Shown here: positions 11,800 through 62,060 of the stretch, one piece after another
How positions within the stretch are numbered: position 1 is the stretch's first letter
How the letters are laid out: each line of letters starts with the position of its first letter
IMG/VR virus record: IMGVR_UViG_3300030450_002944
Coordinates: 17,308 to 81,307 of that record
Direction: 5' to 3' (one strand)
DNA length: 64,000 nt
DNA from: a virus
Program-made: the position numbers and the translations under genes
Notes under the pieces: model-generated
Seen by the model: the letters and a program-made list of their open reading frames with translations, nothing else
The model's database searches: none
Told to the model about the DNA's origin: nothing

Positions 11800-12222
11800 A
11801 TGTATACATATAAATGCACAGTTACAAAAGTAATAGATGGAGACACTATTGATGTTGATATCCAATTAGGGTTTAATGTTATTCTATATAAACAAAGAAT
11901 AAGATTACATGGGATAGACACGCCAGAATCTAGAACTAGGAATTTGGAAGAAAAGGCTAGAGGATTACTTTCAAAAGATTTTATGAAGAAATTGGCTCCT
12001 GTCGGATCTTCCATTACTTTAAAGTCCTTAGAAAAAGGAAAATTTGGTAGGATATTAGGTATTATTTGGCAAGAAGGGGATGAATGGGAAACTGATTCTC
12101 CAATAAACGACTTAATGATTGAAAACTATCATGCAGTTCCATATACTGGACAAAACAAGAACGATGTAGAATCTTTACATGAAGCTAATAAACTCAAGCT
12201 AATTGAAAAGGGAATCTTGTAA
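11800..12222 (+). CDS. Thermonuclease (SNase-like) family nuclease (140 aa)
   Basis: Matches the staphylococcal nuclease fold: VIDGDTIDVDI near residue 10 carries the first metal-binding Asp, RIRLHGIDTPE near residue 33 supplies the catalytic Arg, Asp and Glu, and KFGRILGII near residue 80 supplies the second catalytic Arg. The family is Ca2+-dependent and cuts DNA and RNA. No signal peptide, so probably cytoplasmic or packaged. It ends just before the large structural gene at 12224. Likely roles are host nucleic-acid degradation or processing of entering DNA (inference). Confidence 0.85.
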   Translation: MYTYKCTVTKVIDGDTIDVDIQLGFNVILYKQRIRLHGIDTPESRTRNLEEKARGLLSKDFMKKLAPVGSSITLKSLEKGKFGRILGIIWQEGDEWETDSPINDLMIENYHAVPYTGQNKNDVESLHEANKLKLIEKGIL

Positions 12223-12223
12223 A

Positions 12224-15200
12224 ATGCCAGACATTGATGCAATGACAGAAAAGTTAATGAAGGATCCTGATTTTCAGGCTAAGATAGGTAAAACTAAGCG
12301 TGAAACTGCTCAAGAAGAGGCTACTCAAAGAGCACATCAACATAGAAAAAATTCTATGGCATTAGCATTAGGTAATGAGAGTAAGACTGCTGTAGAACAT
12401 TTAAGTGAATATGCTAAATTAGAGGCTCAACGAAAAGAGATTGATGAAATGGTTTTCGGTGTTCCTACTGAAGAAATTCGAGATAAGATGGCACGTCCTC
12501 TCAATGTGGTTGATATAGACATAAATGATCTTACTTTGAGTCCACCACCAGCTAATACAAGTACTCAGGTTAAAGAAGAATTAGAGACCATCATTGATAA
12601 ACATCTTCAAACAAAAGAAGATACAGATAATTTTGAATTTGAGATTGCAAAGCCTGCTGAAATACAAGATTTAGATATTTTAAAATCTTTCATTAAATTA
12701 GCTGAAGAATTGGGACTTAGTGATGATATTACTAAAAAGAAATTAGAAGTAATAAAAGATGATTCTGCTACTATTGTTTTAAATCTAAAATATTATTTCA
12801 ATAGACCTAGACCTGAACAATTAATGGACTATCATGGAGTAGATTTTAAACCTGCAGATTTCAAAACTTCTGATACTCCTGCTTATCCATCTGGACATGC
12901 CTTTCAAGGTACATTAATTGCATTGATTTTATCTGAAGTGTTTCCACAACATGCAGATTCGTTTATGAAACTTGGTGAATCTATTGGTGAGAATAGAGTA
13001 ATTTTCGGTGTTCATTATCCTTCAGACCACGCCGCTGGTATAGAATTAGCAAAACAGGTTTTTCCTTATGTAAATTTTGAGAAATTAGATTTTAAACCCA
13101 TTCCACAGGAATCCCAACCTTTAGAAAAAGACTTACCTAATATAGAAAAAGCTACAGGTATAGAAATTGCAGCTACAGGAGCAGCTCTAGCATCTGGAGG
13201 AATAGCATTATGGGATTTATATCAAGCTTTTAAGAAAAATAAAAAATTAAAGCAGGAAGATAAAGTAGAATTAAACGAAGCTTTAGAGGAAAATGAAGAT
13301 AGTTTAAAAGAAACAAAAATTGATATAAAAGAAGATGAATTACCAGATTTAGAAAATGCTGATAATGTAGATGAATTAATAAGTGGTGTAAAAAATCCAG
13401 ACAAAGCTGAACCAATTATTGAGAAAGTTAGGAAAAAAAGATGGGATTCTGGACTAAGTAAAGAAGACGCAGCTAAAATTAGAGCTGAACGTGAGGCTAA
13501 AAGAAAGGATGCTGCTACTCCTTTACCTAAAATTGGAGAAGGTGTAGAAGAACCAAAAGGTGAAGAACCTAAAAAAGTAGACGCTGAAAAGAAAGAGTCT
13601 GAACAAGTAGAGGAGAAGAAAGAGCCTCGAAAAATTCCTTTAGATATCCATAGTAAAAAAACTCTTATTGATAACATTGGTAAATTAGTAAATCATATTC
13701 CTACTCATAGAGGAAAAAATGATAGTGATACTTCTAGAGGAAAATTTAATGCTTCTCAAATAAATCCAGATACATCATCTTTAGATCCTGTAGTACATCA
13801 ATCATTTGAAAATTGGAGTACCCGAAACCCAGAAGATTTACATGATCATTTAAATTCCCTATCTGAAGAGAAATTAAGAGCTATAGCTTCAGCGTTAGGA
13901 GAACAAGCTAACCAAGTCGCTCCGGGTAGTGAATTGAATCCAGTAGGTTCATCAACAAGATTAGGTATTTTAGGTAGAATGCTTAGAGACGATAAATCAG
14001 GTAAAAAAGAAATAGAAGGTGTATCTAATAAGGATTACCAAACAGCTTTAAGAGATTCTTTAAGTAGAGCTGTAAATTCTAATCACGATATAACAGTTCC
14101 GGGTGGTGAAGAAGAAATTGTAGAAGCTGCTAATGAGAATTTAGAAGAAGAAACAAGACCTTCACCTGAAGAAGAGGCTAGAAGAAAATATGAAGCGGAA
14201 CAAAAAGCAAAACGAGATGCTGAAGAGGCAGATAAAAAAGAAGAGGAATCTAAAGATAAAAAAACAGGGGGTCCTTCTCCTTTTGCAGTAGAAGAAGAGA
14301 GTAAACCAATTAATTTAGATGAAGCTGATTTAGGTAAGATTAAACTTGGTGACTCTAAAGAACTTACTAATTTAAATGGTTATCTATCAGATGCTAAATA
14401 TGGTGGAATAAAAGGTCAAGAATTTACTAATGAAGATGGTACAGTAAAATCAAGATACATGCATGGTTTACAAGAATATATTAAAAAGAATCCTACTTCA
14501 GCTAAAATTGGTACTGATGGTTCAGTAGAGTTTGATCCTGAATACATAGGTAATTTAACAAAACACTTCTCAGAAAACCATGATGATGCTGCTATGAGTA
14601 GATTATGGGAGAAAAACTATAGACATAAAGGAGCAAGTGATACATCTTCTATTGGATATGGTGATTATTCTCCATCAAAAGAAGCAAGAGGGGCTATACT
14701 TTCTAGAAAAGAAAAAATGGATAAAGTTATGGAACAACAATTTGGAGAAGATTGGGAAGATTCTAATGACTTTGATGTGAGAGCTGAAAGAGAACATCTT
14801 CAATCAATGGATTCAAAAACATTTAATAAACATTTTGATACTGCATATTTAAAACCATTGAGATCTCAGAGACAAAAAGATAGGACTGCAGGTATAAAAG
14901 CAGAGACCCCCAAAGATCCTAATAAAGAACGATGGAATTTAAAGGATTCTAGTCCTGATGAAGCCTATGAAAAAGCTAAAGAAATGATAGCTCATTCACT
15001 TGAACATAGTGAAGAACATGGTGGAAAAGGTTTAGACGAAAAGACTGTTTCTCATATGAATAAACAACTATCAGCTGCTCGTAAAGCAATGGGAGCTGAT
15101 AATATTAAAAAACTTAACCAAGAAATCAAAGATGGTAGTATCCAACCTACTAAAGCTGAAGAGCCTAAAGAGGATAAAGATTACGAAGGATCAGATATTC

Positions 15201-15898
15201 CAGATGAAGCAAGAGGATATGGAGATGCTCCTGAAGGTGTTAAGACATATAAAGGACCATCAGGTGGAGTATTTTATGATAAGAGGGAAGCAAAAAAGAA
15301 AGATAGTGAAGGTGGGGGTGACGGAACATCTGATTCTGGTGATACGGGAGACTCAGGTGAAAAAATGCCTCCACCATCTATACCAGAAGATTCTAAAATA
15401 TCTTCAGATGAACCTGTTGGAGATAAAGCATCTGCATGGGGAGATAAAATCGGATCTGCTGTAAGTGCTTTAGGTAGACTTACTGGAAAAGCAGGTAAAG
15501 AAGATAGAAAAAAATTAATAGCTGATGCGGCTAAGACATTTAAAGAAGCTGGTAAAGCAGTTGGAAAAGAAGGTAAAAGAGCTTTTAATGAAATTGGATC
15601 AGCAATGGCTGAAGAAATAGCTAGATCTAGAGGTTATGGTGAGGCTCAAGCCAAAAATGCTAAACTTAAATATCAATTACAAGCTGCTGCCAGAGGTATT
15701 CCAATAGCAGGTAAAATAATTCCTAAAACTGAAGGATATAAAGGAGAATCAAAGGCTGGAGTCAGAGGGGCAAAACAAGAAACAAGAGCTAAAGAACAAG
15801 CAGCTTATGAGAAATTAACCTATGGAGACAAAGTAGATTTTGAAGTTTCTAAGAGTAATTTAAAAAAACTACAGGATTTTACTAAAAATAGAGTATAA
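12224..15898 (+). CDS. Large virion-type protein with PAP2 phosphatase domain (1224 aa)
   Basis: ATG 12224 is preferred over 12203: it follows the upstream stop and has AAAAGGGA upstream. The N-terminal third carries all three PAP2/class A acid phosphatase motifs: K189-x6-R196-P197, PSGH at 222-225, and NR258-x5-H264-x3-D268 (usual Ser-Arg replaced by Asn-Arg). A hydrophobic helix follows near residue 310. The remainder is Lys/Glu-rich, low-complexity and helical. Near residue 1011 lies GPSGGVFYD, resembling the GPRGGxYY motif I associate with MuF-type phage head proteins. PAP2 enzymes remove phosphate from lipids or small phosphomonoesters. Position at the head of the structural block suggests a minor virion or ejected protein (inference). 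Confidence 0.75.
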   Translation: MPDIDAMTEKLMKDPDFQAKIGKTKRETAQEEATQRAHQHRKNSMALALGNESKTAVEHLSEYAKLEAQRKEIDEMVFGVPTEEIRDKMARPLNVVDIDINDLTLSPPPANTSTQVKEELETIIDKHLQTKEDTDNFEFEIAKPAEIQDLDILKSFIKLAEELGLSDDITKKKLEVIKDDSATIVLNLKYYFNRPRPEQLMDYHGVDFKPADFKTSDTPAYPSGHAFQGTLIALILSEVFPQHADSFMKLGESIGENRVIFGVHYPSDHAAGIELAKQVFPYVNFEKLDFKPIPQESQPLEKDLPNIEKATGIEIAATGAALASGGIALWDLYQAFKKNKKLKQEDKVELNEALEENEDSLKETKIDIKEDELPDLENADNVDELISGVKNPDKAEPIIEKVRKKRWDSGLSKEDAAKIRAEREAKRKDAATPLPKIGEGVEEPKGEEPKKVDAEKKESEQVEEKKEPRKIPLDIHSKKTLIDNIGKLVNHIPTHRGKNDSDTSRGKFNASQINPDTSSLDPVVHQSFENWSTRNPEDLHDHLNSLSEEKLRAIASALGEQANQVAPGSELNPVGSSTRLGILGRMLRDDKSGKKEIEGVSNKDYQTALRDSLSRAVNSNHDITVPGGEEEIVEAANENLEEETRPSPEEEARRKYEAEQKAKRDAEEADKKEEESKDKKTGGPSPFAVEEESKPINLDEADLGKIKLGDSKELTNLNGYLSDAKYGGIKGQEFTNEDGTVKSRYMHGLQEYIKKNPTSAKIGTDGSVEFDPEYIGNLTKHFSENHDDAAMSRLWEKNYRHKGASDTSSIGYGDYSPSKEARGAILSRKEKMDKVMEQQFGEDWEDSNDFDVRAEREHLQSMDSKTFNKHFDTAYLKPLRSQRQKDRTAGIKAETPKDPNKERWNLKDSSPDEAYEKAKEMIAHSLEHSEEHGGKGLDEKTVSHMNKQLSAARKAMGADNIKKLNQEIKDGSIQPTKAEEPKEDKDYEGSDIPDEARGYGDAPEGVKTYKGPSGGVFYDKREAKKKDSEGGGDGTSDSGDTGDSGEKMPPPSIPEDSKISSDEPVGDKASAWGDKIGSAVSALGRLTGKAGKEDRKKLIADAAKTFKEAGKAVGKEGKRAFNEIGSAMAEEIARSRGYGEAQAKNAKLKYQLQAAARGIPIAGKIIPKTEGYKGESKAGVRGAKQETRAKEQAAYEKLTYGDKVDFEVSKSNLKKLQDFTKNRV

Positions 15899-31104: not shown

Positions 31105-32013
31105 GTGGTGTTTAAACGAATGGCAAAAGCTTTACCTAGTAGGGCTGGATTAAGTGCAATAGGATCTGCTTATAGAAAAGGCGGAGCTGCATCTGCATCT
31201 TATTCAGGCATTGGTACTGCTATGGCTTCTCCGTTTAAAGCCTTAGCTGAAACTGCAAAAGAGATGAAAAGTCCTGCAGGTAAGTTTTGGGGAGCTTTAA
31301 CTAAAAATAAAAGTATATTAGGAATTAATCTTGGTATTGGTTCACTCTTAAAACAATCTCAGGTATTTACTGGGGCAGTAAGTACAATTATGCAAATCAT
31401 TGGAGCTATGGTGGATGTTTTAATTGCACCTTGGATTGTTCCTTTATTTATACCATTAGCTAAAAAAATGGTTTCATTTATACCTAAAATTCGAGAATGG
31501 TCAGCGGATTTAGCTGAAAAATATGTTCCAAAAATTAAAGCTATATTTGATAATTTAGTTACTGGTGAAGGAACTCTTTGGGAAAGAATAGGAGAATTTA
31601 TTGGCGAGAGTTGGAATCTAATTTGGGAAGATACCGGACTATCAAAATGGTGGAATGAGCAAACAGGAATTTTAGGAGTATTTACAAAAACATTATCAGC
31701 TGCTGGTACAGGATTAGCAAAAGTGTATAATTTCTTTGCGAATATTGGAGAAGGTCCATTTAATAATTATTGGGCTAATATGGCTTGGAACGCAATTTCA
31801 GTATCTGCCTCATTTGCTGCTGGTCCAATGTCTAGCAGAGCTGTCAGTCGACTTTTTAACCTTTTAGAAAGTTTAATTGAAGGGGGAGATCCAGCACCTG
31901 ACTTTCCTCAAATACCAACATCACCTCCAGCCCCAGCTGCATTTCAAGATATATATGAAAAATCTGGTGTAGGACTAGGAGTAAGCTATGATCCATATGG
32001 GGGTAATGTATAA
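31105..32013 (+). CDS. Tape-measure-like protein A (302 aa)
   Basis: GTG start with GGAGG upstream. It sits where the tape measure gene follows G/GT. A central hydrophobic segment (residues about 88-118, MQIIGAMVDVLIAPWIVPLF) is typical of tape measure proteins. Paralogous to the next gene: shared MVFK start, KFWGALTKNKSILGIN/KFWSILSKNKTILGIN and LLKQSQVFTGA/FLKQSQVFTGA. At 302 residues it is very short for a tape measure, implying a short tail or shared duty with its twin. Confidence 0.65.
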   Translation: MVFKRMAKALPSRAGLSAIGSAYRKGGAASASYSGIGTAMASPFKALAETAKEMKSPAGKFWGALTKNKSILGINLGIGSLLKQSQVFTGAVSTIMQIIGAMVDVLIAPWIVPLFIPLAKKMVSFIPKIREWSADLAEKYVPKIKAIFDNLVTGEGTLWERIGEFIGESWNLIWEDTGLSKWWNEQTGILGVFTKTLSAAGTGLAKVYNFFANIGEGPFNNYWANMAWNAISVSASFAAGPMSSRAVSRLFNLLESLIEGGDPAPDFPQIPTSPPAPAAFQDIYEKSGVGLGVSYDPYGGNV

Positions 32014-33053
32014 TGGTATTTAAAGCAGCAGGAGCAGGAATTAGAGGTGTTAAGGGCACATATCAATTTGGAAAAAGAATGCATAAAGAGGTAGGTCGTG
32101 CTCATAGAACAGGTGGGAGAGCATCAGCAGCTTATAAAGCAGCCGGAATGCTTGCAAGTGGTCCCGGAAAACTTGTAGCCGAATCTGCTAAAGATGTACT
32201 AAAACCGAGTGGTAAATTTTGGTCAATATTATCTAAAAATAAAACTATATTAGGAATAAATGTAGGTGTTGGGGCATTTTTAAAACAATCTCAGGTATTT
32301 ACTGGAGCTATCAGCTCTATTTTACAAATTGTTGGAGCTATGGTTGACGTATTGATAGCTCCTTGGTTAATACCATTAATTATTCCATTAGCTAAAAAAA
32401 TGGCATCAGCCATTCCAAAAATTCAAGAATGGTCACAAGCATTAGCAGATAAATATGTTCCAATTATTAAGGATAAACTTAGTGCAATTTGGAATGGTGA
32501 AGGAAGCTTTATGGGTAAAATCTGGGATTCTATAAAAGGTGTAATTAATATAGTATGGACAGAAAGTGGTTTACAAAAATGGTGGCAAGAGGCAGAAGGT
32601 ATAATGGGATTTTTTAGAACCACTGTTGAGGCTACAGTTGGTATATTACGATTTATGGGATTAATTGAAAAACCAGCAGTTCAAATGACTCAGGGAGATA
32701 TGGATAGAGAGGCATTTGGAGCTAAATATAAAGATGCAGCTTATGAAAGATCTCATCAAGAAGGATTAGCCTTTGAGGGTCGCTGGGCATATTATACTGG
32801 GCATATGGAAAGATATGGAAATATGTACGACTCAGGTAAAAATGAATGGTCAGGTACTGATTATGGTGGTTTTGGGACAGGACCCGGATTTGCTAACGTA
32901 CCCGGAGGAGCTGGTGGAGTAATGGCTCCTGCAAATAGTTTAGCCCAAACGATTCAAAAATCACATACACAAAATTCAGCTGAAGGTATAGAAAAAGTCT
33001 TAGAGTGGTTAACAGATCCAGCAGGGATTTTCAGTAATTGGAAACCATGGTAA
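32013..33053 (+). CDS. Tape-measure-like protein B (346 aa)
   Basis: Second copy of the preceding gene, overlapping it by one base (TAATGG). The two align through residues about 45-200, sharing SQVFTGAxSxxxQIxGAMVD, IAPW, IPLAKKM and the EWS-LA-KYVP helix; the C-termini differ (here Gly/Tyr-rich). The pair is a tandem duplication that has diverged. It may form a mixed tail core, or one copy may have taken a baseplate or membrane-insertion role. Confidence 0.65.
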   Translation: MVFKAAGAGIRGVKGTYQFGKRMHKEVGRAHRTGGRASAAYKAAGMLASGPGKLVAESAKDVLKPSGKFWSILSKNKTILGINVGVGAFLKQSQVFTGAISSILQIVGAMVDVLIAPWLIPLIIPLAKKMASAIPKIQEWSQALADKYVPIIKDKLSAIWNGEGSFMGKIWDSIKGVINIVWTESGLQKWWQEAEGIMGFFRTTVEATVGILRFMGLIEKPAVQMTQGDMDREAFGAKYKDAAYERSHQEGLAFEGRWAYYTGHMERYGNMYDSGKNEWSGTDYGGFGTGPGFANVPGGAGGVMAPANSLAQTIQKSHTQNSAEGIEKVLEWLTDPAGIFSNWKPW

Positions 33054-50360: not shown

Positions 50361-50863
50361 TGCCTAAGAATTATCCAGAGGAAGTAAAATTAGCCGCTTT
50401 AGAATTGTATTTAGAAAACAAGACTGGAGCTGAAATTGCAGATTCTATTAATAAGCAATTTGAACTAGAGGTAAAAGCTCCAACTATATATGCTTGGGCA
50501 AGACAATATAATTGGAAAGGCGAAAATGCAGCTATGTCAACAAAAGCAAAAGAGATAGTTAAAGAGAAACAGAGTCAACGACTTGCTAGAATTCAAACTG
50601 AACATCTAGATGTGTATCAAGGGGTTAGAGAAAAAGCAAGTTCTGAATTAGAAGGTTTAGAATTTGAGAGAGCCTTTGAGGCAGTTAAAGCTTTAGACAT
50701 AGGAATACAAGGAGAACGGAAAACTATTGAGGGTCTGGTAAACTTACAATTCGTTCAAGACGTTCTTAATGTATTAGTTGAAGAAATATCAGATCAAGAC
50801 GTATTAACCAAAGTAGCCAGTAAATTAAGAACTCTGGTACAGGAGAGAGATGACATCCAATAA
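50360..50863 (+). CDS. Small terminase subunit-like protein (167 aa)
   Basis: N-terminal helix-turn-helix (EEVKLAALELYLENKTGAEI then APTIYAWARQYNWKGE) of the kind that recognises the packaging site, followed by helical oligomerisation segments. Overlaps the large terminase gene by 14 bases, the standard pairing. Confidence 0.75.
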   Translation: MPKNYPEEVKLAALELYLENKTGAEIADSINKQFELEVKAPTIYAWARQYNWKGENAAMSTKAKEIVKEKQSQRLARIQTEHLDVYQGVREKASSELEGLEFERAFEAVKALDIGIQGERKTIEGLVNLQFVQDVLNVLVEEISDQDVLTKVASKLRTLVQERDDIQ

Positions 50864-52511
50864 AAAACAACAAGAAGCATTAACATTTCAAGATGCCTTC
50901 AGTAAATTAGCAGAAGGATTAACTACTGGTAATGTTAGTTATAAAGTCGGTAGCTTTTATGAATTTCTTAGAGACATTTGGTCACAAAGTTTTGATAATC
51001 CTGAATATTTTGGAGCTTGGCATGTGGGGGTTTTAGCAGATGATATCGAAGAATGTTTAGAAACAGGTAAAAATTATGTTGCAATACTACCACGTTTCCA
51101 TTTTAAGTCTACAATTTTAGGACATGCTTTCAGTGTTTGGAGACTTTTGAAGGCTAAAAGAGATTGTTCAGTATTATATTTATCATATAGTGATGGAATG
51201 GCTAGATATCATTTATCTGAAATAAATAAAACTGTTTCAAGGAATCCTGTATTAATGGATTTAATGGATAACAGGTCACCAAAAGCTGATTATTCTTTTA
51301 GATATTATATTAATAAGAAACCAATGGAGATTATGCATGGTGGATTATTCTCTTTCAAAAGAGGTATGCATGTTAATGGAGCATTAATTGCTGATGACGT
51401 ATTGCGTGATCCGGAAAATCCTTTAAATACTGGACAAATAACAAAAGTTGAAGATCATTTTATGACAGAAAGTTTGTTTATTCCTTTGAAAGGTGTACCA
51501 GTAATTGTATTGGGTACTCCAATGATGCCCGGAGACTTATTAACCAACTTGCAGAAAGATGATAGATTTAAATCAAGAGTATTACCAGCTCTTGACCCAA
51601 CACCTACTAGAAGAGTGTTGATGCCTGAGTTATACAATGAGGAATGGTTATTACAACAACAAGAAGCAAGACCAAAATCATTTGCTTCAGAGTTTTTGTT
51701 GCAACCTCATTTTGCAACTGAAGCATATTTTAATGAAGAGGATGTAGTTAAGTGTGAGTCAGAAGACTTAAGAAGTGCTTCTGCACATCAAACATTTAAA
51801 ATGGAAGCTGGAGATCAACTATTTGCTGGGTTTGACGTAGGTAAAAAACGACACCCATCTCATTTAGTTATATTCAGAAGAAGAGGCGATAAGATAGAAC
51901 AAGTACATCAATCATGGTTAGATGGATGGAATTATTCAGATCAAATTCAATATTTGAATGAAGTCGCTGAAAATTATAGTTTAGAGAAGGGATATATAGA
52001 TAATACAAGAGGAGAGCTAGAAGACAGAGGATTAGATACTGTATGGCATTCGATGACTTTTTCACAAAAGAGTAAGAGAACTATGGCACAAATCTTTGAA
52101 GAGTATGTTCATTCGGGTAACTTAAAGTTAATAAAAGATGAAAGACAGAAAGGACAAATTCTGTCGGTGAGTAATGACTTAAAAGCTCCTGAAACCCCAA
52201 TGGGACATGGAGATGCATTCTTTTCGATTGCAATGGCATTACAAGCATGTTATGAAACAACTATCTATAGATACGAAAGTTTGGGAAGCGTTACTGATTG
52301 GCTTGATGCAGTGTCCCCTGAAGAGAAGAATTCAATCAAAGAAGAAGCAAAAGTTCCAGATCTGTCAAAATGGACAGGAAATGAGTATAATAAAGATAAG
52401 GAACAAAATCAAAAAGCACCCAACCCATCATGTGATGAAATGGTATGTATGCCTAATTTTTGGGTAAAAGAAAAAAATCTATGTCTGTATTGTGGATACA
52501 GAGGAGGATAA
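50850..52511 (+). CDS. terL: Terminase large subunit (553 aa)
   Basis: ATPase domain with a variant Walker A (LPRFHFKSTILG near residue 82) and Walker B-type GALIADDVLRD near 172, then a coupling Thr (LGTPMMPGD). The RNase H-fold nuclease begins FAGFDVGKKRHPSHLVIF near residue 325, with later acidic residues in GDAFFSI. Unusual is a C-terminal four-cysteine finger (CDEMVC, CLYC) after about residue 525. Cleaves and translocates DNA into the procapsid. Confidence 0.88.
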   Translation: MTSNKKQQEALTFQDAFSKLAEGLTTGNVSYKVGSFYEFLRDIWSQSFDNPEYFGAWHVGVLADDIEECLETGKNYVAILPRFHFKSTILGHAFSVWRLLKAKRDCSVLYLSYSDGMARYHLSEINKTVSRNPVLMDLMDNRSPKADYSFRYYINKKPMEIMHGGLFSFKRGMHVNGALIADDVLRDPENPLNTGQITKVEDHFMTESLFIPLKGVPVIVLGTPMMPGDLLTNLQKDDRFKSRVLPALDPTPTRRVLMPELYNEEWLLQQQEARPKSFASEFLLQPHFATEAYFNEEDVVKCESEDLRSASAHQTFKMEAGDQLFAGFDVGKKRHPSHLVIFRRRGDKIEQVHQSWLDGWNYSDQIQYLNEVAENYSLEKGYIDNTRGELEDRGLDTVWHSMTFSQKSKRTMAQIFEEYVHSGNLKLIKDERQKGQILSVSNDLKAPETPMGHGDAFFSIAMALQACYETTIYRYESLGSVTDWLDAVSPEEKNSIKEEAKVPDLSKWTGNEYNKDKEQNQKAPNPSCDEMVCMPNFWVKEKNLCLYCGYRGG

Positions 52512-52526
52512 TAAGGAAGGAACAAA

Positions 52527-54407
52527 ATGGTGACACAATTAACCCCGCAAGCCGAAACAGTCGCAACGAGTCGATATTATTTAAAAAATGAAGATAATGA
52601 AGTTATTGAAACTGCCGAAGAAATGTTTAAAAGAGTCGGACAGGCTATAGCTAAGATTGATATGCAGTATGGACAAATGGATGCTAATGCAGCATTAACA
52701 GCTATCGATTTTACAAGTATGATGAGTGAATTAAAGTTTATCCCTAATTCACCAACATTAATGAATGCAGGTACTGATCAAGGAACTTTATCAGCTTGCT
52801 TCGTGTTACCTTTAGAAGACAGCATGGAAGATATAATGAAAGCTGCTCATGACATAGCAATGGTACAAAAGTTTGGAGGAGGTACAGGATTTGCTCTTAG
52901 TAAGCTAAGACCAAGAGGAGATCGGATAAAAACTACTCATGGAATTGCTTGTGGACCTATTCAAGTGTTGAAGACACTTTCAAGAGTTTCTTCTATGATA
53001 ACTCAAGGTGGAAAGAGAGATGGAGCAAATATGGCAGTAATGTCTGTATACCATCCTGATATTCTTGAGTTTATTGAATGTAAAAAAGTCGAAGGTGAGA
53101 TACATAACTTTAATATTTCTGTTGGGGTAGACTCTAACTTTATGAAAGCAGTAGAATCTAATGCTGACTACAATTTAATAAATCCAAAAAGTAATGAAAT
53201 AACTGGACAATTAAATGCTAGAGAAGTATTTAACAAGATTATTTATGGGGCTTGGAGAAATGGTGAGCCGGGAATGATATTCTTAGACAATGTTAACAAA
53301 GATAATAATGTAATAGAAGAATATGGTGAAATGATTGCAACTAATCCTTGTGGCGAACAACCATTATTAGGAAATGAATCATGTAATTTAGGTTCAATCA
53401 ACCTAGCTAAGTTCTATCACGAAGATCATCATGATGTAGATTGGAAGAATCTAGAAAAGGTTGTAAAAACATCAGTCCATTTCTTAGATAATGTAATTGA
53501 TGCGAATAAGTATGCGACACCAGAAATAGAGAAAATGACTAAAGCTACTAGAAAGATAGGTTTAGGTGTTATGGGATTCGCAGATTTGCTAATTCAGCTG
53601 AAAATTAAGTATAATAGTATAGAGGGACGTAAATTAGGTAAAGATATTATGTCCTTTATTAGAAAAATAGCTGATGCACAGTCAATAAAATTAGCAAAAG
53701 AACGTGGTACTTTTCCTGCATGGGATAAAAGTAACTATGGAGAAGATGAAAAATATAGAAATTCTTGTAGGTTGACTGTTGCTCCTACAGGAACAATATC
53801 TATGATAGCTGATACTTCTAGTGGAATTGAGCCAACATTTGCTTTGGCTTGGAAGAAGTCGAATATACTAGAAGGACAGACTTTATATTATGTAAACAAA
53901 TATTTTGAGAGAGATGCTAAAGCACATGACTTCTATTCAGAAGATTTAATGGAACATTTATCTCAGGGAGGTTCTTTAGAATCAAGAGAAGATGTACCAC
54001 CATGGGCTAAAGAAATATACATTACAGCTCCAGAAATTTCTGCAGAGGATCACGTTGCGATGCAGTCAGCTTTTCAGGAAGATTGTGATTCAGGTATCTC
54101 AAAGACAATTAATTTTCCTAATGAAGCGACCCTCGCTGATGTTGAGTCGGCTTACCTATCTGCTTGGAATCTTGGTTGTAAAGGTATTACTGTTTATAGG
54201 GCAGGAAGTAGAGAAAAAGAAGTTCTGGTTAAAGGGACTAAAGACAAAAAAGAGGAAGAATTAGACGATCAATTAAGTTTTTTTGACTCAATGGAAGCAC
54301 CAGTTAAAGCTATGGAGTCAGATTGTTGTGATTCTCCTCAAGTAATAATGGAATCAGGTTGTAAAACCTGTAAAAGTTGTGGTTGGAGTGCTTGCCACAT
54401 AGCTTAA
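52527..54407 (+). CDS. nrdJ: Class II (adenosylcobalamin-dependent) ribonucleotide reductase (626 aa)
   Basis: Monomeric RNR core: FIPNSPTLMNAG near residue 72, TGFALSKLRPRG, active-site NPCGEQPLLGNESCNLGS near residue 272 (Cys, Glu, Cys), VAPTGTISMIAD, and GLGVMGFADLL. No NrdB partner is adjacent and the sequence is the compact B12-dependent type. C-terminal CKTCKSCGWSACHI supplies redox/zinc cysteines. Makes deoxyribonucleotides for phage replication with or without oxygen; the host must supply cobalamin. Confidence 0.9.
   Translation: MVTQLTPQAETVATSRYYLKNEDNEVIETAEEMFKRVGQAIAKIDMQYGQMDANAALTAIDFTSMMSELKFIPNSPTLMNAGTDQGTLSACFVLPLEDSMEDIMKAAHDIAMVQKFGGGTGFALSKLRPRGDRIKTTHGIACGPIQVLKTLSRVSSMITQGGKRDGANMAVMSVYHPDILEFIECKKVEGEIHNFNISVGVDSNFMKAVESNADYNLINPKSNEITGQLNAREVFNKIIYGAWRNGEPGMIFLDNVNKDNNVIEEYGEMIATNPCGEQPLLGNESCNLGSINLAKFYHEDHHDVDWKNLEKVVKTSVHFLDNVIDANKYATPEIEKMTKATRKIGLGVMGFADLLIQLKIKYNSIEGRKLGKDIMSFIRKIADAQSIKLAKERGTFPAWDKSNYGEDEKYRNSCRLTVAPTGTISMIADTSSGIEPTFALAWKKSNILEGQTLYYVNKYFERDAKAHDFYSEDLMEHLSQGGSLESREDVPPWAKEIYITAPEISAEDHVAMQSAFQEDCDSGISKTINFPNEATLADVESAYLSAWNLGCKGITVYRAGSREKEVLVKGTKDKKEEELDDQLSFFDSMEAPVKAMESDCCDSPQVIMESGCKTCKSCGWSACHIA
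53608..53623 (+). promoter_or_regulatory. Late -10 motif inside the reductase gene
   Basis: AGTATAATAGTATAGA, identical over 15 bases to the motif before the BMP and terminal membrane genes, here within coding sequence. It could start an internal transcript towards the portal genes about 0.8 kb downstream, or be chance. Confidence 0.35.
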
Positions 54408-54891: not shown

Positions 54892-56586
54892 ATGGCTAAA
54901 TTATCAGAATTTCTTCCAGATGTACCTCAAGTAGCTCAGACTATTTCAAGTTTGAACGAGCAGATAAACATGCTGCAGATTATGAAATCGACTGGAGATA
55001 GTGGACAAGCTCCTACTATTGGGTTGGATCATGTAGTTAATACATGGGTTCGACATCAAATGGCATATCGCCAACAACTTGTAATGGATTTACAGACTAT
55101 TACTTTTTCTGTACAAGAAATAAGAGGTCCATTAACACATATTACAGGTGAAGTATTTAGACGAGGACTAAAGCTTGTCCCATCTGTAAAAAATCCAGAT
55201 AAAAGTCAGTTAACTAGATTTAATAAATTTTTTGCTGATGCTAACGTATTTGATCAAAGTTTAGAAGAAGTTCTACGACAATTCCATTATGATGTTAACT
55301 CTATTGATGATGGATTTTTATACATGGCTAAAGAGTATGAAGAATTATCAGATGGAAAACTAGGGTCTAAAGTAAAAGAAATACGAAGATTAAATCCTGC
55401 TCTAGTTGAATTTGACTTAGACGCTGCAGGATTACCAAAAAATGCTCATTTTGTCTGTCCATTAGATAGAACAGATGTAGCTGAAGAACCGGGTAAATCT
55501 AAAAAAGGATATGACAGAATCCCTGCGATGTATAAATATTATCACAGGAATCAACATATGTACTTAACTGATTCAGAAATTATACATTTATCTAAATTCT
55601 CACCTTCTGAAACTTATGGTTGGTCACCTATATTAACAGTATTTGAAAAAGCTCTTACCTTAATTGGTATGGATAAAAACTTATATAGGTATTTCTTTGA
55701 AAGAAAAATGCCAGCTTCTATGATCATGGTAACTACTGATGATCCTGAAAGCTTAAGAAGAGAACGAGCTCATATAGCAGCTCAAACTAGACTTGATCCA
55801 AACTTTATTCCTATGGTAGCAGTATCATCTAGGAACAATAGAGGTAGAGTTGATATGGTAAGATTATTCCACACTCTTCAAGAGATGGATTATATGCCAG
55901 TTAAACAAGAAATTAGAGAGAGAATTGCTTCTATGTGGGGAGTATCACCAACGTGGCAAGGTACGCCTGAAGCTTTTGGTGGATTATCAGCTACTACGCA
56001 ACAATTAACTGTAATGAGTAGAGTAGTTGAATCAGATCAACGATTATTTCATGACAAAGTATTCCCACAATTATTAAAAGCATTCGGTGTTACGGATTGG
56101 AAACTTGAACTTCCTACTCCTGAAGAAAAAGCTGAAGCAACTATAATTGCTCAGACTCAACAGAAAGTTGCAATTGCTAGTCAATTAGCACAAATGGGCT
56201 TTAGTGTTGAACTTAAGGATAAAGAAGAAGTAGATATGAAAGAACTTGAGTTTGTAGTTAGTGGAGATATGGTTCCACAAGCACGAATGCAAGGTGAACA
56301 ACAAGCAATGCAATTAGAACAACAGCAACAACAAATTGAACAGGCTAAACAGCAAGCTGAGATGGCTCAGATGCAAGCTGCTATTCAAGAAGGTGGTGGA
56401 GAAGAAGATGAAGAAGAAGAAGAAGGTATGGAGAAAAGTTTAGAGAAGAGTAAATATGTTGCTCATAGAAATATAGGAGAGTTATTGGGAACTGATCATG
56501 ATACTAAAAAAGCAGAAGATGAAGATGAGTGGGAAGAAGAAGAAAGAGACCCCATTCCAGAAGATTGGGAACATGAAGACGATTAG
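54892..56586 (+). CDS. Portal protein (564 aa)
   Basis: Matches phage portal proteins by pattern: INMLQIMKSTGDSG, RHQMAYRQQL..., the conserved wing segment VEFDLDAAGLP, the GWSPI loop (YGWSPILTVFEKAL), the ERIASMWGVSPTWQG segment and a Gln-rich C-terminal tail (QQAMQLEQQQQQIEQAKQ) before an acidic end. Twelve copies form the DNA entry ring; lies between terminase and the large fusion enzyme gene. Confidence 0.88.
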   Translation: MAKLSEFLPDVPQVAQTISSLNEQINMLQIMKSTGDSGQAPTIGLDHVVNTWVRHQMAYRQQLVMDLQTITFSVQEIRGPLTHITGEVFRRGLKLVPSVKNPDKSQLTRFNKFFADANVFDQSLEEVLRQFHYDVNSIDDGFLYMAKEYEELSDGKLGSKVKEIRRLNPALVEFDLDAAGLPKNAHFVCPLDRTDVAEEPGKSKKGYDRIPAMYKYYHRNQHMYLTDSEIIHLSKFSPSETYGWSPILTVFEKALTLIGMDKNLYRYFFERKMPASMIMVTTDDPESLRRERAHIAAQTRLDPNFIPMVAVSSRNNRGRVDMVRLFHTLQEMDYMPVKQEIRERIASMWGVSPTWQGTPEAFGGLSATTQQLTVMSRVVESDQRLFHDKVFPQLLKAFGVTDWKLELPTPEEKAEATIIAQTQQKVAIASQLAQMGFSVELKDKEEVDMKELEFVVSGDMVPQARMQGEQQAMQLEQQQQQIEQAKQQAEMAQMQAAIQEGGGEEDEEEEEGMEKSLEKSKYVAHRNIGELLGTDHDTKKAEDEDEWEEEERDPIPEDWEHEDD

Positions 56587-56594
56587 GAGATAAG

Positions 56595-59500
56595 ATGACT
56601 TGGTTTGAAAAACAAGGAAGAGAAGGTTTAATTCCTAAAAAAGTTTCTGAAACTGTCCATCCAAAAGAAGGGCTTCCATTTGAAAGACTTAGTACAGTAT
56701 ATGTCAAGCCTGAAGTCCCAGACTTTGTAAATGATTGGTTAGAAGATTTTGATTCAAAAACACCAGTCTATTTAGTTGGAGGTTCAGTTAGAGATTCATT
56801 ATTAGGAGAAACCCCAAAAGATATAGATGTAATTACTTTCCAACCAAAAGAAGATATAGAAGCGAGTCTAAAAAATTCTAAAACGAAATTCTATCAAGGT
56901 GGAAAAAATTTACCTAACTTACTTACTGCCAATCTAGGCAAGGATCAATTAATTGATATTGTAAGTATGGATACAGATATAGGATCTGAGCTAGTAAGAA
57001 GAGATTTCACAATAAATGCTATGGCTCAAAGACCAGACGGTGAGATTATAGATCCATTTGGGGGACGAAAAGATTTAAAAGAAGGTGTTTTAAGATCTCC
57101 AAAAGATGATAGTGATAAGGTATTTGAAGATGATCCTTTAAGAATGCTTAGAGCAGCTAGATTTATTGGTGATTTAAACTTAAAACCTCATAGTTCTGTA
57201 ACTCAAGCTATCCAAAAACATAAAGATTTATTATCAAATCTTCCAAAAGAACGTATAGGTATGGAATTTGGAAGAATATTATATTCTAAAGATCCAATAT
57301 CTGGATTAAAATTCTTAAAAGATAATGACATGTTAAAATATATTGACCCAGCTTTACAAAGAATGGTTGGATTTGTTCAAAATATAGAAGGGCATGACTA
57401 TGATGTTTGGAATCACACACTTAAATCCTTAGAACATCATATAACTAAAGATAAAAAAAGTCCAGACTTAGCTACTAGACTAGGAATTTTATATCACAAT
57501 GTAGGTAAGCCTGCAACAGCTAATTCTAATAATAGCAATTTTGATAATTATGAATCTATTGGAGCACAAATTGTAGAAGAAAGCCTTAATTCTTTACGAC
57601 TACCTTCTGATATGATAGATACTGTTAGAAAGTTAGTACAACACCATACTTCTGCAAAGACTGCAAAAACTGAAGGTGATCATAGAAGAGTACAACTGAA
57701 GTTAAGACATGACTTAAACAAACTTAATTATGTAGCAACTGCTCATGAAGTAGGAAAAGAAGGTAATGTAAATGCCGACACTTCTCATATAGTTGAATTT
57801 CAAGACACTATTGATAAATTAGATCCTGTATCAGCTGAAGGTGAGGGTTCTTCAAAACTTTCCCCATTATCTGGAAAAGAGATTATGGACGCATTAAATA
57901 TTGTTCCTAATAAAAAAGGTGGGGGTGAAAGAATTGGCAAGATAAAAGACTTCTTAGACAATCTAGTTGTTGAAGGTGAACTAAAACAATCTGATAAAGA
58001 AGGAGCTTTAGAAAGAGCTAAACAGTATCATTCTACATTCACTATGAAGTCTACTGATATTTTAAAAGGTTGGCTAAATATATTGAAAGACGAGGATATT
58101 ACAGGTGAGGCATTTGCAGGTCATACAGAAGATGCAGATGGTAATTTAGTATTTGATGCAAGTAAAAAGAAGCAAAAACAAGAAGTAGCTGATTGGCATG
58201 CTAATTTTGAAAAGCAGAAAAGACTTGATGCGGGATTAATTCCAAAAAAACTTACTGATAAAAATGGTATTGAGGTTACACGTTGGATAAACCCAAAAAA
58301 AGATGATGTGGAAATGGATAAAAATTCCCCAAATTTTGCAATGAGAGATTTAAAACATACTTATGGCACTAGTAATGCGAAAGAATTATGGGAAAAATAT
58401 AAAAAACCTGTTCTAGATAAAAAAACCGGAGAGCATTTAAAAGATGAAAAAACTGGTGAATTAAAGTATACACATAGTATTACACTTCCTCATCCAGAGG
58501 ATTCAAAAAGTTCACATTATCATGGAGAAGGTAGAAAAGGTAAAAAACTTGGCAGTTCTGAGAAATGGATGAACGCTGATAATATACATTTCGATGATGA
58601 TCCTTTTTCATTATATCCAATAAAAGCAACAAATGAAAAGGGGAAGATAATAAAAGATAAAGGTCCAACATATGATCATCCAGAACATACAGCTATGAGA
58701 TGGAAAACAAAAGCAGCTGGAGTCACAGCCATATATATGAGAAAAGATCCGTTAAATGATGCTTTAGAAGCAGAATATAAAAAAGATAATCCAGCCTTAG
58801 AGGCAATAATGACAGGTTTAATGTTTAAAAGTGGGATTAGAGTAGGTAATCCTGCCGATGCTAAAGAATTATTAGCAGCTCTAGATAAACCTGCTTCATT
58901 TGGAGCCTCTTCTTTACAAAAACAACATCTTAGGATTGATGGGGATAAGATTTACCATAAATTTCCGGGTAAGAAAAAGACGATGCAAGAAGCTCCCGAA
59001 CCTATAGTTGATGCAAATTTAGCAAAAGCATTGACTAAGATAATGAAAAACAAAAAAGATGATGATTTTATATTTCAAAAAGATAATGGGGTGATTGTTA
59101 ATGAAGGAAGCACTCAAAAATGGCATAATAAAGCAATGAAAATTCATCCGGATAATCCAGTTACTAATCATAATTTTAGAACTTTCGTTGGAACAAGTAT
59201 GGCAGTAAATAATGTAGCTGACTTTCTTAATAATCCAGAGGTTATAAAAGAGCTTGATAAAACAAATAAACTTCCAATTAAAACTAAAGGCGAGTTTAAG
59301 GATTTTACACATAGAATGGCAATTGATTCAGCTAAACAATTAAGTCATGTTAGTGGAGATGGTAACAAAATCAATCCACAGATAACTTTAGATCATTATA
59401 TAAAGCCAGATACTTTTACATATAAACAATCAGATGGTAAGAATGTATTAATAGAATCCGCAATTGATGATGATAGCACGAAAATATCTAAAGAATATCA

Positions 59501-59984
59501 AGACTTTATGGAAAAAGCTACAGGTAAGAGAAGACTAACTAAAGAAGATATGATTTTAAAAGATCCTGAAAATATGACAAAATCTTTAGATGGTAAAGAA
59601 TTCGACCCTACTAGAAAAAAGGAAAAAGATATAGATACATATTTTGAAAACAGGAAAGAAAAAGAAGAAGATAGGAACTATGGGCTAGATAAAATCCCAG
59701 CTCATATGAGACCTAGACCTAAATATTTCGCAAAAACATGGATTGAAGATTTAGCAGAGAAGGGCTTCCAAGCTCCCATAGTTAAATCTATTAGTCCAGA
59801 TGGATCCAAAATGTGGTTCATTGAAGGAGGTACAGACTTTGTAGCATCATTAGGAGCAAGTGGTGTTGGACATGTTGAGAAAGCAACTTTCCCACCATTA
59901 CCATCCAATGCAACAAATAAAATAAGTTATGCACCTTCAGCTTCCAATAAAAGACGGGAGGAAGATACCGATGAAGAAGAATAA
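56595..59984 (+). CDS. CCA-adding-type nucleotidyltransferase + HD-like + topoisomerase IB fusion (1129 aa)
   Basis: Residues about 58-240 form a class II poly(A)/CCA nucleotidyltransferase head: YLVGGSVRDSLLGETPKDID with the DxD at 76-78, RRDFTINAMA near 135, and FEDDPLRMLRAARF. An HD-like domain follows (HTLKSLEHH near 275, but the HD pair reads His301-Asn302). From about 700 to 945 lies a topoisomerase IB catalytic domain: R749 (SGIRVGN), FGASSLQKQHLRI, K793 (FPGKKK), R862 (NHNFRTFVGTS) and the nucleophile Y935 (LDHYIKP). A charged tail ends the protein. The gene starts eight bases after the portal gene. No named family covers this order. Confidence 0.82.
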   Translation: MTWFEKQGREGLIPKKVSETVHPKEGLPFERLSTVYVKPEVPDFVNDWLEDFDSKTPVYLVGGSVRDSLLGETPKDIDVITFQPKEDIEASLKNSKTKFYQGGKNLPNLLTANLGKDQLIDIVSMDTDIGSELVRRDFTINAMAQRPDGEIIDPFGGRKDLKEGVLRSPKDDSDKVFEDDPLRMLRAARFIGDLNLKPHSSVTQAIQKHKDLLSNLPKERIGMEFGRILYSKDPISGLKFLKDNDMLKYIDPALQRMVGFVQNIEGHDYDVWNHTLKSLEHHITKDKKSPDLATRLGILYHNVGKPATANSNNSNFDNYESIGAQIVEESLNSLRLPSDMIDTVRKLVQHHTSAKTAKTEGDHRRVQLKLRHDLNKLNYVATAHEVGKEGNVNADTSHIVEFQDTIDKLDPVSAEGEGSSKLSPLSGKEIMDALNIVPNKKGGGERIGKIKDFLDNLVVEGELKQSDKEGALERAKQYHSTFTMKSTDILKGWLNILKDEDITGEAFAGHTEDADGNLVFDASKKKQKQEVADWHANFEKQKRLDAGLIPKKLTDKNGIEVTRWINPKKDDVEMDKNSPNFAMRDLKHTYGTSNAKELWEKYKKPVLDKKTGEHLKDEKTGELKYTHSITLPHPEDSKSSHYHGEGRKGKKLGSSEKWMNADNIHFDDDPFSLYPIKATNEKGKIIKDKGPTYDHPEHTAMRWKTKAAGVTAIYMRKDPLNDALEAEYKKDNPALEAIMTGLMFKSGIRVGNPADAKELLAALDKPASFGASSLQKQHLRIDGDKIYHKFPGKKKTMQEAPEPIVDANLAKALTKIMKNKKDDDFIFQKDNGVIVNEGSTQKWHNKAMKIHPDNPVTNHNFRTFVGTSMAVNNVADFLNNPEVIKELDKTNKLPIKTKGEFKDFTHRMAIDSAKQLSHVSGDGNKINPQITLDHYIKPDTFTYKQSDGKNVLIESAIDDDSTKISKEYQDFMEKATGKRRLTKEDMILKDPENMTKSLDGKEFDPTRKKEKDIDTYFENRKEKEEDRNYGLDKIPAHMRPRPKYFAKTWIEDLAEKGFQAPIVKSISPDGSKMWFIEGGTDFVASLGASGVGHVEKATFPPLPSNATNKISYAPSASNKRREEDTDEEE

Positions 59985-60837
59985 AACACTTAATAGATTA
60001 TTAAAGTTATTGAAAGAAGGTGGAGCCGCTACGTCAGGTAGTTTTGGAGATGGTGGTGGAACTGTATTTACATCTACAGATTCTGGAATTTTCAATCCAA
60101 CTCATGGTGGAGGGGGTTATAAAAGAAAAGAGCCTCATATAAAGAAGCCTAAAAAGAAAAAGAGTGGGATTGAGAGATTAGATGCCTTCCTTAGAGAATA
60201 TAGTCCTGTACCAAAATCCATGGAAAAATCTTACAATGCTTCAGAAGAACTAATTGAATTAATTAATTGGGTAAGGAAAGCAGAATATCCTACAAGAGGT
60301 TATGGAGGCAACTTAGGTAGAAAACAATTAGACTGGAAGAAACCTAATAGTAATGAAGAACCTCCTAAAGCCTCTGAATTTAAAGGAGAGATTAATCATG
60401 AAGAAGATGAATCGGCAGTGATTGAGCAAAAAGATATGGAACAAAAAATTAGAAATCTAGATGATAATTCTAGAAAAGAAGGACGAGATCATTCAACCGA
60501 AGATGAAACTATGTCTGCAGATACACCTGAATTAGTTACTCAAAAAGGTTTATCTCCATCAGCTGATAGTTCTAACCCTTATAAAAGAGGGGGTAGAATG
60601 GATAACCTTGATGACAATCCTGAAATAAACAAAGACGAGCTAGATAAATTTATAGATAAATATCTAACTATAGATAAAGAAGTGGGTGGTGCAGTTACTC
60701 AAACTACCTTTCAAGAAAGAGAAGTACTTGATGAGGATGAAGATGTAAAAGACGAAGACATGATTGAAGAAGAAAACCATGTAAAAGAAGTAGTGCATCC
60801 TAAAGGACAAAAAGGAACTTACTCTACAGACGACTAA
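59971..60837 (+). CDS. Hypothetical structural-block protein (288 aa)
   Basis: ATG 59971 is chosen because GGGAGGAAG lies upstream; it overlaps the fusion gene by 14 bases. Basic N-terminus (MKKNKTLNRLLKLLKE), Gly-rich linker, lysine cluster, a helix near residue 95, then a long acidic, disordered tail. Composition resembles phage scaffold or internal head proteins, but no motif supports a specific role. Confidence 0.7.
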   Translation: MKKNKTLNRLLKLLKEGGAATSGSFGDGGGTVFTSTDSGIFNPTHGGGGYKRKEPHIKKPKKKKSGIERLDAFLREYSPVPKSMEKSYNASEELIELINWVRKAEYPTRGYGGNLGRKQLDWKKPNSNEEPPKASEFKGEINHEEDESAVIEQKDMEQKIRNLDDNSRKEGRDHSTEDETMSADTPELVTQKGLSPSADSSNPYKRGGRMDNLDDNPEINKDELDKFIDKYLTIDKEVGGAVTQTTFQEREVLDEDEDVKDEDMIEEENHVKEVVHPKGQKGTYSTDD

Positions 60838-60911: not shown

Positions 60912-62060
60912 ATGTCAAAGTTTTTCCAATTTATTTTATTATTAGCAATGTTTCCACTCTTATTGCTAGGGTGTGAAAGTATAGAAGAACCAAAGGACAC
61001 GAAGATCGGAATGATATTAGTCGGTCCTAAAAACGATAAGGGTTGGTCTCAAGCTCATTACGAAGGTGGTGAGTATGTAGTTTCTCAACTAGGTGGAGAA
61101 ATGATAACAGTTGATCTTGTAAACCCCGCAGATTCCCCAGACTTAACTATCCCTTCAATTGCCGAAGATATGATCTCTCAAGGAGCATCTATAATTTTTG
61201 CTACTTCAGATGATATGAAAGATGGTATATTAGAAGCTGCAGAGAAATATCCAGACACCGATTTCGTCTGGTCTACAGGAGATAGTGCATTAGTAGTCGG
61301 ACAAGGCTATAAACCTGAATTAAAAAACCTATCTAATGTAATGGGTAAGATGGAATATGGTCAAATGATTGCAGGTTGTGCAGCAGCTATTAAATCTAAA
61401 GAAGGAAAGATTGGTTTTCTTGGTCCATTAGTTAATGATGAGACAAGAAGATTAGCAAATGCTACCTACCTTGGAGCTTTACATTGTGCTGGAGATAAAG
61501 AAATTGATTTCGATGTAACTTGGATTGGATTCTGGTTTCATATTCCGGGCATGACTTTAGATCCAACACAAGTAGTTAATGAATTTTATGACTCTGGTAG
61601 GGATGTTGTAATCTCTCATATAGATACTACTGAAGCCGTAGTTGTTGCAGGACAAAGAGCCGCTGGAGGAGAGGATATATGGGTAGTACCTTACGATTAT
61701 AAAGGAGCTTGTGAACAATCCCCAGAAATTTGTCTAGGAGTAAATTACTTTAATTGGGGCTATGACTATTTAGAACTGGTTGAACTAAGTAACTCAGGTA
61801 AATTTGAAAACAATTGGATTTGGACTGATCCTAACTGGGCTAATTTAGAAGAATCTATTGTAGGTTTTAAATATGGAGATGGTTTAGATCCAAAGGAAAA
61901 AGCTAAAGTAAGTAGCTTTATAACTGAATTAAAAGACGGGCTCAATCTATTTAAAGGACCATTATATTTTGAAGATGACTCAGTATACCTAGAAGAAGGT
62001 AAGGAAGCATCTGATATAGATATATGGTACACCCCAAAACTACTAAAAGGCATCAAATAG
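60912..62060 (+). CDS. BMP-family substrate-binding lipoprotein (382 aa)
   Basis: Signal peptide with lipobox at residues about 17-21 (LLLLGC; Cys lipidated). Mature protein follows the basic membrane protein/PnrA-Med pattern: IGMILVGPKNDKGWSQAHYE, IPSIAEDMISQGASIIFATS, VWSTG, NVMGKMEYGQMIAGCAAAIK, GKIGFLGPL, and VISHIDTTEAV. Bacterial relatives deliver purine nucleosides to an ABC transporter; no permease or ATPase gene is adjacent. It would be exported and anchored by host machinery, capturing nucleosides or coating the cell surface (inference). Confidence 0.88.
   Translation: MSKFFQFILLLAMFPLLLLGCESIEEPKDTKIGMILVGPKNDKGWSQAHYEGGEYVVSQLGGEMITVDLVNPADSPDLTIPSIAEDMISQGASIIFATSDDMKDGILEAAEKYPDTDFVWSTGDSALVVGQGYKPELKNLSNVMGKMEYGQMIAGCAAAIKSKEGKIGFLGPLVNDETRRLANATYLGALHCAGDKEIDFDVTWIGFWFHIPGMTLDPTQVVNEFYDSGRDVVISHIDTTEAVVVAGQRAAGGEDIWVVPYDYKGACEQSPEICLGVNYFNWGYDYLELVELSNSGKFENNWIWTDPNWANLEESIVGFKYGDGLDPKEKAKVSSFITELKDGLNLFKGPLYFEDDSVYLEEGKEASDIDIWYTPKLLKGIK

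Follow-up and report, generated by a model that had tools for sequence, protein, structure and literature searches.

A tRNA nucleotidyltransferase–topoisomerase IB fusion on a portal-derived tail: candidate virion cargo in an uncultured tailed phage group

The DNA analysed here, which we call the window, makes up the final 64 kb of an 81.3-kb virus contig. Directly 3′ of its portal gene lies an ATG-initiated frame, 8 nt beyond the portal stop codon, whose product joins a class II nucleotidyltransferase (NTase), a degenerate HD domain, a topoisomerase IB (TopoIB) and a portal-derived tail in one chain (Table 1). The single 1129-residue frame noted in an earlier sequence-only reading is intact and recurs in many related contigs: a 100% identical protein is encoded on two IMG/VR contigs from other samples (L001 and L002), and homologues of the whole fusion at 57–61% identity are found on L003–L006, L022, L023, L033 and L038. 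Because the frame is kept whole across related contigs, a frameshift or an assembly fusion of two genes is excluded. The position directly after the portal is likewise retained in every relative whose contig covers that side. Self-comparison of the fusion found no internal duplication.

Table 1. Coordinates of the portal-linked fusion gene, its domains and catalytic residues, and the adjoining genes
Feature	Position in window	Strand	Details and basis
Portal protein, here without tail domain	54892..56586	+	PHROG 18178 portal, 4.2e-36; alignment with L067 portal
Shine-Dalgarno GGAG	56586..56589	+	Directly after portal stop; from sequence
NTase-HD-TopoIB-portal-tail fusion gene	56595..59984	+	1129 aa; ORF list; full-length identical or homologous frames on other contigs
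Class II NTase head	56763..57095	+	aa 57-167; Pfam PolyA_pol 3.3e-20; alignment
DxD (D76/D78) of NTase	56820-56828	+	Alignment
Site of absent flexible loop and B/A motif	56955..56999	+	aa D121 to R135; alignments with E. coli Cca/PcnB and phage enzymes
RNA-binding/neck region	57183..57356	+	aa 197-254; Pfam PolyA_pol_RNAbd 1.2e-9
Degenerate HD domain and C-terminal NTase part	57375..58004	+	aa 261-470, H301-N302; Pfam, NCBIfam, motif reading
Exchangeable cassette (linker and TopoIB)	58038..59588	+	~aa 482-998; identity 97% to ~50% at aa ~482, back near aa ~1000
TopoIB catalytic core	58746..59429	+	aa 718-945; Pfam Topoisom_I; PDB profile search; Foldseek
Catalytic R749	58839..58841	+	Invariant in alignment
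Catalytic K793, FPGK hairpin	58971..58973	+	Invariant in alignment
Catalytic R862, NHNFR box	59178..59180	+	Invariant in alignment
Catalytic H918	59346..59348	+	Invariant in alignment
Nucleophile Y935	59397..59399	+	Invariant in alignment
Portal-derived tail domain	59700..59891	+	aa 1036-1099 (conserved ~aa 1000-1115); match to L067 portal C-terminus
Next gene (G59929), Gly-rich acidic protein	59929..60837	+	Enzyme carrier in relatives; comparison of relatives

The source of the window is an uncultured phage group. Its relatives are common among the IMG/VR metagenome contigs searched, and tblastn of the terminase (50850–52508) gave no match at E≤1e-10 in 50,697 phage records; the same type of search with the portal matched only haloarchaeal tailed viruses. 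In bacterial and archaeal genomes the portal search returned one contig (L136, 110 kb, 57% portal identity), which belongs to a Candidatus Daviesbacteria MAG and offers a possible but weak hint of the host; the fusion architecture was not found in the bacterial or archaeal genomes searched. No tRNA gene is present within the 64-kb window. A ribonucleotide reductase-like gene, recognized by eye (52527–54407), is located between the terminase and portal genes and keeps this location in every relative that covers it. In the head-gene block, the product of positions 60912–62060 resembles PnrA/BMP substrate-binding proteins (Pfam Bmp, 4.8e-20) and apparently carries a lipoprotein signal; its gene is absent from L022 and L023. 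Elsewhere in the window, two adjacent genes (31105–32013 and 32013–33053) are 56% identical over 181 aa, a tandem duplication of which the first copy has a tape-measure match. Another large multidomain candidate is a 1231-aa protein (12203–15898) with a PAP2 domain at residues 191–280 (Pfam, 3.1e-13), a domain also seen in the next-gene cargo of the relative L079.

The N-terminal enzyme carries every core motif of the class II tRNA nucleotidyltransferases (GGxVRD, DxD plus a third carboxylate, RRDFTxNA, E/DDxxR and the neck), here as GGSVRDSLLG, D76-I-D78, RRDFTINAMA, DDPLR or EDPIR and a neck motif; its carboxylates are likely D76, D78 and D121. The region of the head motifs noted in the sequence-only reading is matched by Pfam PolyA_pol and by the CCA nucleotidyltransferase model TIGR02692 (2.8e-55 over residues 56–467, under that equivalog's own cut-off). 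The spacing from D121 to RRD is 14 residues, compared with ~31 in E. coli Cca, and the Pfam head model splits on the fusion into model positions 1–48 and 84–126. In the alignment, 17–18 residues are absent from all NTases of the window family, with the result that the stretch from motif A to motif B has neither the flexible loop nor the B/A motif. The AlphaFold model of the NTase half has a pLDDT of 46, and so the loop deletion rests on the alignment. Other phage NTases that we compared retain the flexible loop. The L119 NTase keeps the RTE motif and has a shortened loop; that of L173 keeps both. A frame on the 735-kb phage LR756501 (L048, 3775–7485; 1237 aa) ends in a class II tRNA nucleotidyltransferase, and its upstream part looks deaminase-like by eye.

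Deletion of the loop is the hallmark of bacterial CC-adding enzymes (PMC7014341), and we predict from the absence of the loop and the B/A motif that the window NTase has CC-adding rather than CCA-adding activity. The earlier assignment to a tRNA CCA-adding head is narrowed accordingly, as the loop and the B/A motif are required for the A step. The enzyme might instead be a poly(A)/poly(C) polymerase or add the complete CCA, with some other element serving the A step; the nearest profile, TIGR02692, is after all a CCA nucleotidyltransferase model that matches over the full length, and E. coli PcnB has the same head. We regard this as unlikely, since the loop and B/A motif are missing in every window-family member and their loss is what marks the bacterial CC-adding enzymes.

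The HD-like domain that follows has, as first read, a His-Asn pair in place of the metal-binding His-Asp. The motif is Y300-H301-N302; all close relatives have HN for HD and a Tyr replacing a later His, such that the H...HD...D metal ligands of HD phosphohydrolases are incomplete throughout the window family; Pfam HD reaches E=0.0011 on the fusion, under its cut-off. The HD domains of L119 and L173 carry an intact HD. The NTase-HD region is under purifying selection (dN/dS 0.07–0.18).

From sequence profiles and the predicted fold, we conclude that the C-terminal enzyme module is a topoisomerase IB. The four catalytic residues first proposed (R749, K793, R862 and Y935) were confirmed and are joined by H918, which completes an R-K-R-H-Y pentad that is in order and invariant in the 7 aligned sequences, with three alleles at 36–43% identity. 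Pfam Topoisom_I matches the fusion at 1e-7, above its cut-off, Phage_integrase stays under its own, and same-site relatives score more strongly for Topoisom_I (L094 2.6e-11, L173 1.5e-13, L157 2.3e-14). A PDB search with the seven-member profile retrieved only TopoIBs (Deinococcus 2f4q, archaeal-type 6z01, variola 2h7f and vaccinia 1a41). With an AlphaFold model of residues 495–1129 (pLDDT 71.6), Foldseek gave 21 PDB matches at E≤1e-3, all of them TopoIB, with the first recombinase at 1e-2; in the viral structure library BFVD the strong matches were again topoisomerases, led by that of Achromobacter phage Motura and including that of PaBG. In sequence as well as in fold, the module thus lies nearer to TopoIBs than to the tyrosine recombinases. 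We reject the highly improbable alternative of a site-specific tyrosine recombinase for integration or resolution, because the strong PDB profile matches and 21/21 fold matches are to TopoIBs, BFVD agrees and the same-site relatives reach 1e-11 to 2e-14 for Topoisom_I, whereas the features that recall recombinases are low-scoring matches to Phage_integrase (best 2.7e-5) and to the phrog_216 integrase family, and an HxxR (NHxFR) box that the TopoIB of a Rhizobium phage has too. In tblastn of phage records, the window TopoIB found no match and the L038 allele matched only in Rhizobium phages.

The last ~100 residues of the fusion are a portal domain, which in most syntenic relatives surveyed forms the portal's own C-terminus. 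When the C-terminal 139 residues of the fusion served as the query, residues 1036–1099 matched the C-terminus of the L067 portal at 50% identity (E=1e-17). L067 is a syntenic relative (TerL 67%, ribonucleotide reductase 71% and portal 69% identity) with no enzyme gene at the site, and among portal relatives (best 80 of ~375 per scan) the portal commonly keeps its tail and has no insert after it. On this alignment, the tail domain of the window is the portal C-terminal domain, detached and moved onto the enzyme, which makes the gene an enzyme cargo on a portal-derived tail. The sequence-only reading had pointed to MuF-like internal proteins as common in this kind of gene block; neither Pfam nor PHROG gave a MuF match, and at the sequence level the fusion is not MuF-like.

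Comparison of close relatives revealed sharp breakpoints within the fusion. In L007, the genes upstream and the first ~480 residues are 91–99% identical to the window, and nucleotide identity then drops from 97% to ~50% within 20 codons at aa ~482. The matching 3′ side is found in L025, from the same metagenome as L007, in which identity returns to 97–100% near residue 1010. Genes flanking the L007 and L025 fusions are 91–99% identical to those of the window, and the pairs L004/L006 and L006/L033 have the same breakpoint pattern. As judged from these identity profiles, the TopoIB cassette is swapped within the window family at sharp breakpoints. A frame in L027 (4020–6086), in which a DNA polymerase A-like region leads directly into the TopoIB cassette, is probably an assembly chimera.

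We surveyed the loci of portal relatives, taking the best 80 of ~375 per scan. Grouping 145 loci at 95% portal identity gave 67 clusters, 53 of them with a readable site. Within this sample (best 80 of ~375 per scan; a cluster showing two architectures would be entered under both), ~40 of the 53 clusters have a portal with its tail and then the next gene, with no TopoIB or NTase; TopoIB is present in 11 and NTase-HD in 5, and all five NTase clusters carry TopoIB in the same chain. By architecture, the same sample (best 80 of ~375) holds three NTase-HD-TopoIB-tail clusters, which are the window family, four in which TopoIB is fused to the next gene, and one each with TopoIB beside the next gene, TopoIB-tail and the tail alone. 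The carrier of the enzymes is either the portal C-terminal domain or, in relatives, the next-encoded protein. The order NTase-HD-TopoIB, for which the sequence-only reading named no described enzyme, is not confined to the window family: L119 has it on the next gene product, and in L173 TopoIB comes first (TopoIB-NTase-HD-next gene). Other cargo at the site comprises HNH (L117), PAP2 with DUF6321 (L079), a metallopeptidase of the zincin type (HELSH; L102) and, in L190, a weak match to methyltransferases. Taken together, these comparisons indicate that the locus is a cargo site at which relatives exchange enzymes.

A single clade of the window-family, L119 and L173 NTases was rejected (AU p 0.008, with few references and long branches). 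Because the NTases of these pairings do not form one clade, it seems that NTase and TopoIB were joined on more than one occasion; the TopoIB tree has long branches that leave its deeper order unsure. Three further proteins were noted at these loci. L107 (2424–4067) encodes a TopoIB-tail protein without the TopoIB arginine box, a degenerate cargo copy. L138 (3444–6110) encodes an 889-aa next-gene fusion with, by eye, a very divergent TopoIB-like core missed by the models used. L106 (6285–9380) encodes a 1032-aa cargo with repeated linker motifs after the portal-tail; a likeness of its C-terminus to ADP-ribosyltransferases, seen by eye, gained no support in Pfam and PDB searches.

We favour, at a probability of about 0.58, the reading that a tailed marine phage makes the fusion as a polyvalent-type virion cargo and delivers it with the genome. 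Several catalytic domains share one chain in a virion and packaging gene context, as in polyvalent proteins, and portal- and MuF-fused enzymes have been proposed to be injected (PMC5512222). The tail would dock the fusion at the portal inside the head, from which it would be packaged and leave with the DNA; joined to a tail borrowed from the portal, both enzymes would probably ride in the virus particle. In the infected cell, TopoIB could relax the incoming genome, or the DNA threading the portal, and such relaxation would aid early transcription or replication. Repair of tRNAs that host RNases have attacked is already a proposed role of phage CCA enzymes (PMC7824862), and the NTase may rebuild the CC of tRNA 3′ ends damaged in this way, with the host enzyme adding the A. 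Exchange of the TopoIB cassette between phages is as would be expected of an early-acting effector under host pressure. The portal-derived tail and the cargo locus thus lend weight to the early suggestion that the protein may be packaged and ejected; overall, the domain calls, active-site residues and portal linkage of the sequence-only reading were borne out, and its CCA-adding call narrows to a predicted CC-adding activity.

The operon also encodes non-virion proteins, among them ribonucleotide reductase and a metallophosphoesterase, and position alone is therefore no proof of packaging. The fusion could accordingly be an unpackaged cytoplasmic bundle, made with late or metabolic genes and acting on replicating DNA and tRNA, for which the tail provides only a regulatory or assembly contact. 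The PnrA-like lipoprotein gene in the same operon and the existence of standalone phage CCA enzymes and TopoIBs fit this account. It is nevertheless improbable, as two structural-region proteins carry TopoIB, NTase-HD and other effector-type enzymes in the manner of polyvalent proteins. Less probable still is a swivel at the portal vertex, in which a TopoIB held by the tail relieves DNA torsion during packaging or ejection and the NTase is a passenger. Such a role would suit a tail that is a portal domain and the presence of TopoIB without NTase at the site in L133, L094, L146, L157 and L167; however, most relatives surveyed package DNA without a TopoIB there, those that have one often bear it on the next gene instead of the portal tail, and purifying selection on the NTase is strong.

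Returning to the virion cargo reading, we tentatively suggest, while thinking it somewhat doubtful, that the C-terminal domain of the portal and the product of the next gene serve interchangeably as docking tags at a site of phage cargo delivery, and that TopoIB and a CC-adding enzyme were paired there more than once because their joint delivery is advantageous, for example against a host defence that harms both DNA and tRNA. On the favoured reading, the locus shows how part of a portal can be converted by a phage into a tag that docks enzyme cargo, with a predicted link between DNA topology and tRNA 3′-end repair at the start of infection. Its relatives provide a natural series for the study of virion-enzyme function, from an empty site through TopoIB alone and both enzymes to other enzymes.

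Several known systems resemble parts of this one. TopoIBs of phages and jumbo phages (Motura, PaBG and RHph_I42) share the core and fold, and that of Rhizobium phage RHph_I42 also has the HxxR box and a long His-Tyr spacing; however, at 606 aa it lacks both the NTase-HD and the tail domain, and no portal adjoins it in the stretch read. The poxvirus TopoIB, which is carried in the virion core, has the same fold (variola 2h7f) but is a single-domain enzyme from unrelated eukaryotic viruses. Class II CCA- and CC-adding enzymes such as E. coli Cca and phage PVP-SE1 gp159 have the head, neck and body motifs A–E and an HD-type C-terminal part, whereas the window protein has lost the loop and B/A motif, has a degenerate HD and is fused to TopoIB and the portal tail. 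In the haloarchaeal tailed virus HCTV-5, genes for HNH, an ADP-ribosyltransferase and gpF come after a portal homologue (28%), but these effectors are separate genes and include no TopoIB or NTase. A further parallel is with the polyvalent proteins (Iyer et al. 2017, PMC5512222), large multidomain proteins encoded beside the portal, with enzymes on portal or MuF carriers, mosaic domain exchange and predicted packaging and injection. A word search of the main text of that study found no topoisomerase outside the reference list and no CCA enzyme, and neither a TopoIB with a loop-less NTase as cargo nor a detached portal domain as carrier was found in the open-licence papers searched, which is no proof of absence. 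Polyvalent proteins are already known, and what appears new in these sequences is the pairing of TopoIB with a loop-less tRNA NTase as cargo, together with its carrier, which here is the C-terminal domain of the portal in detached form and in some relatives is the next gene product.
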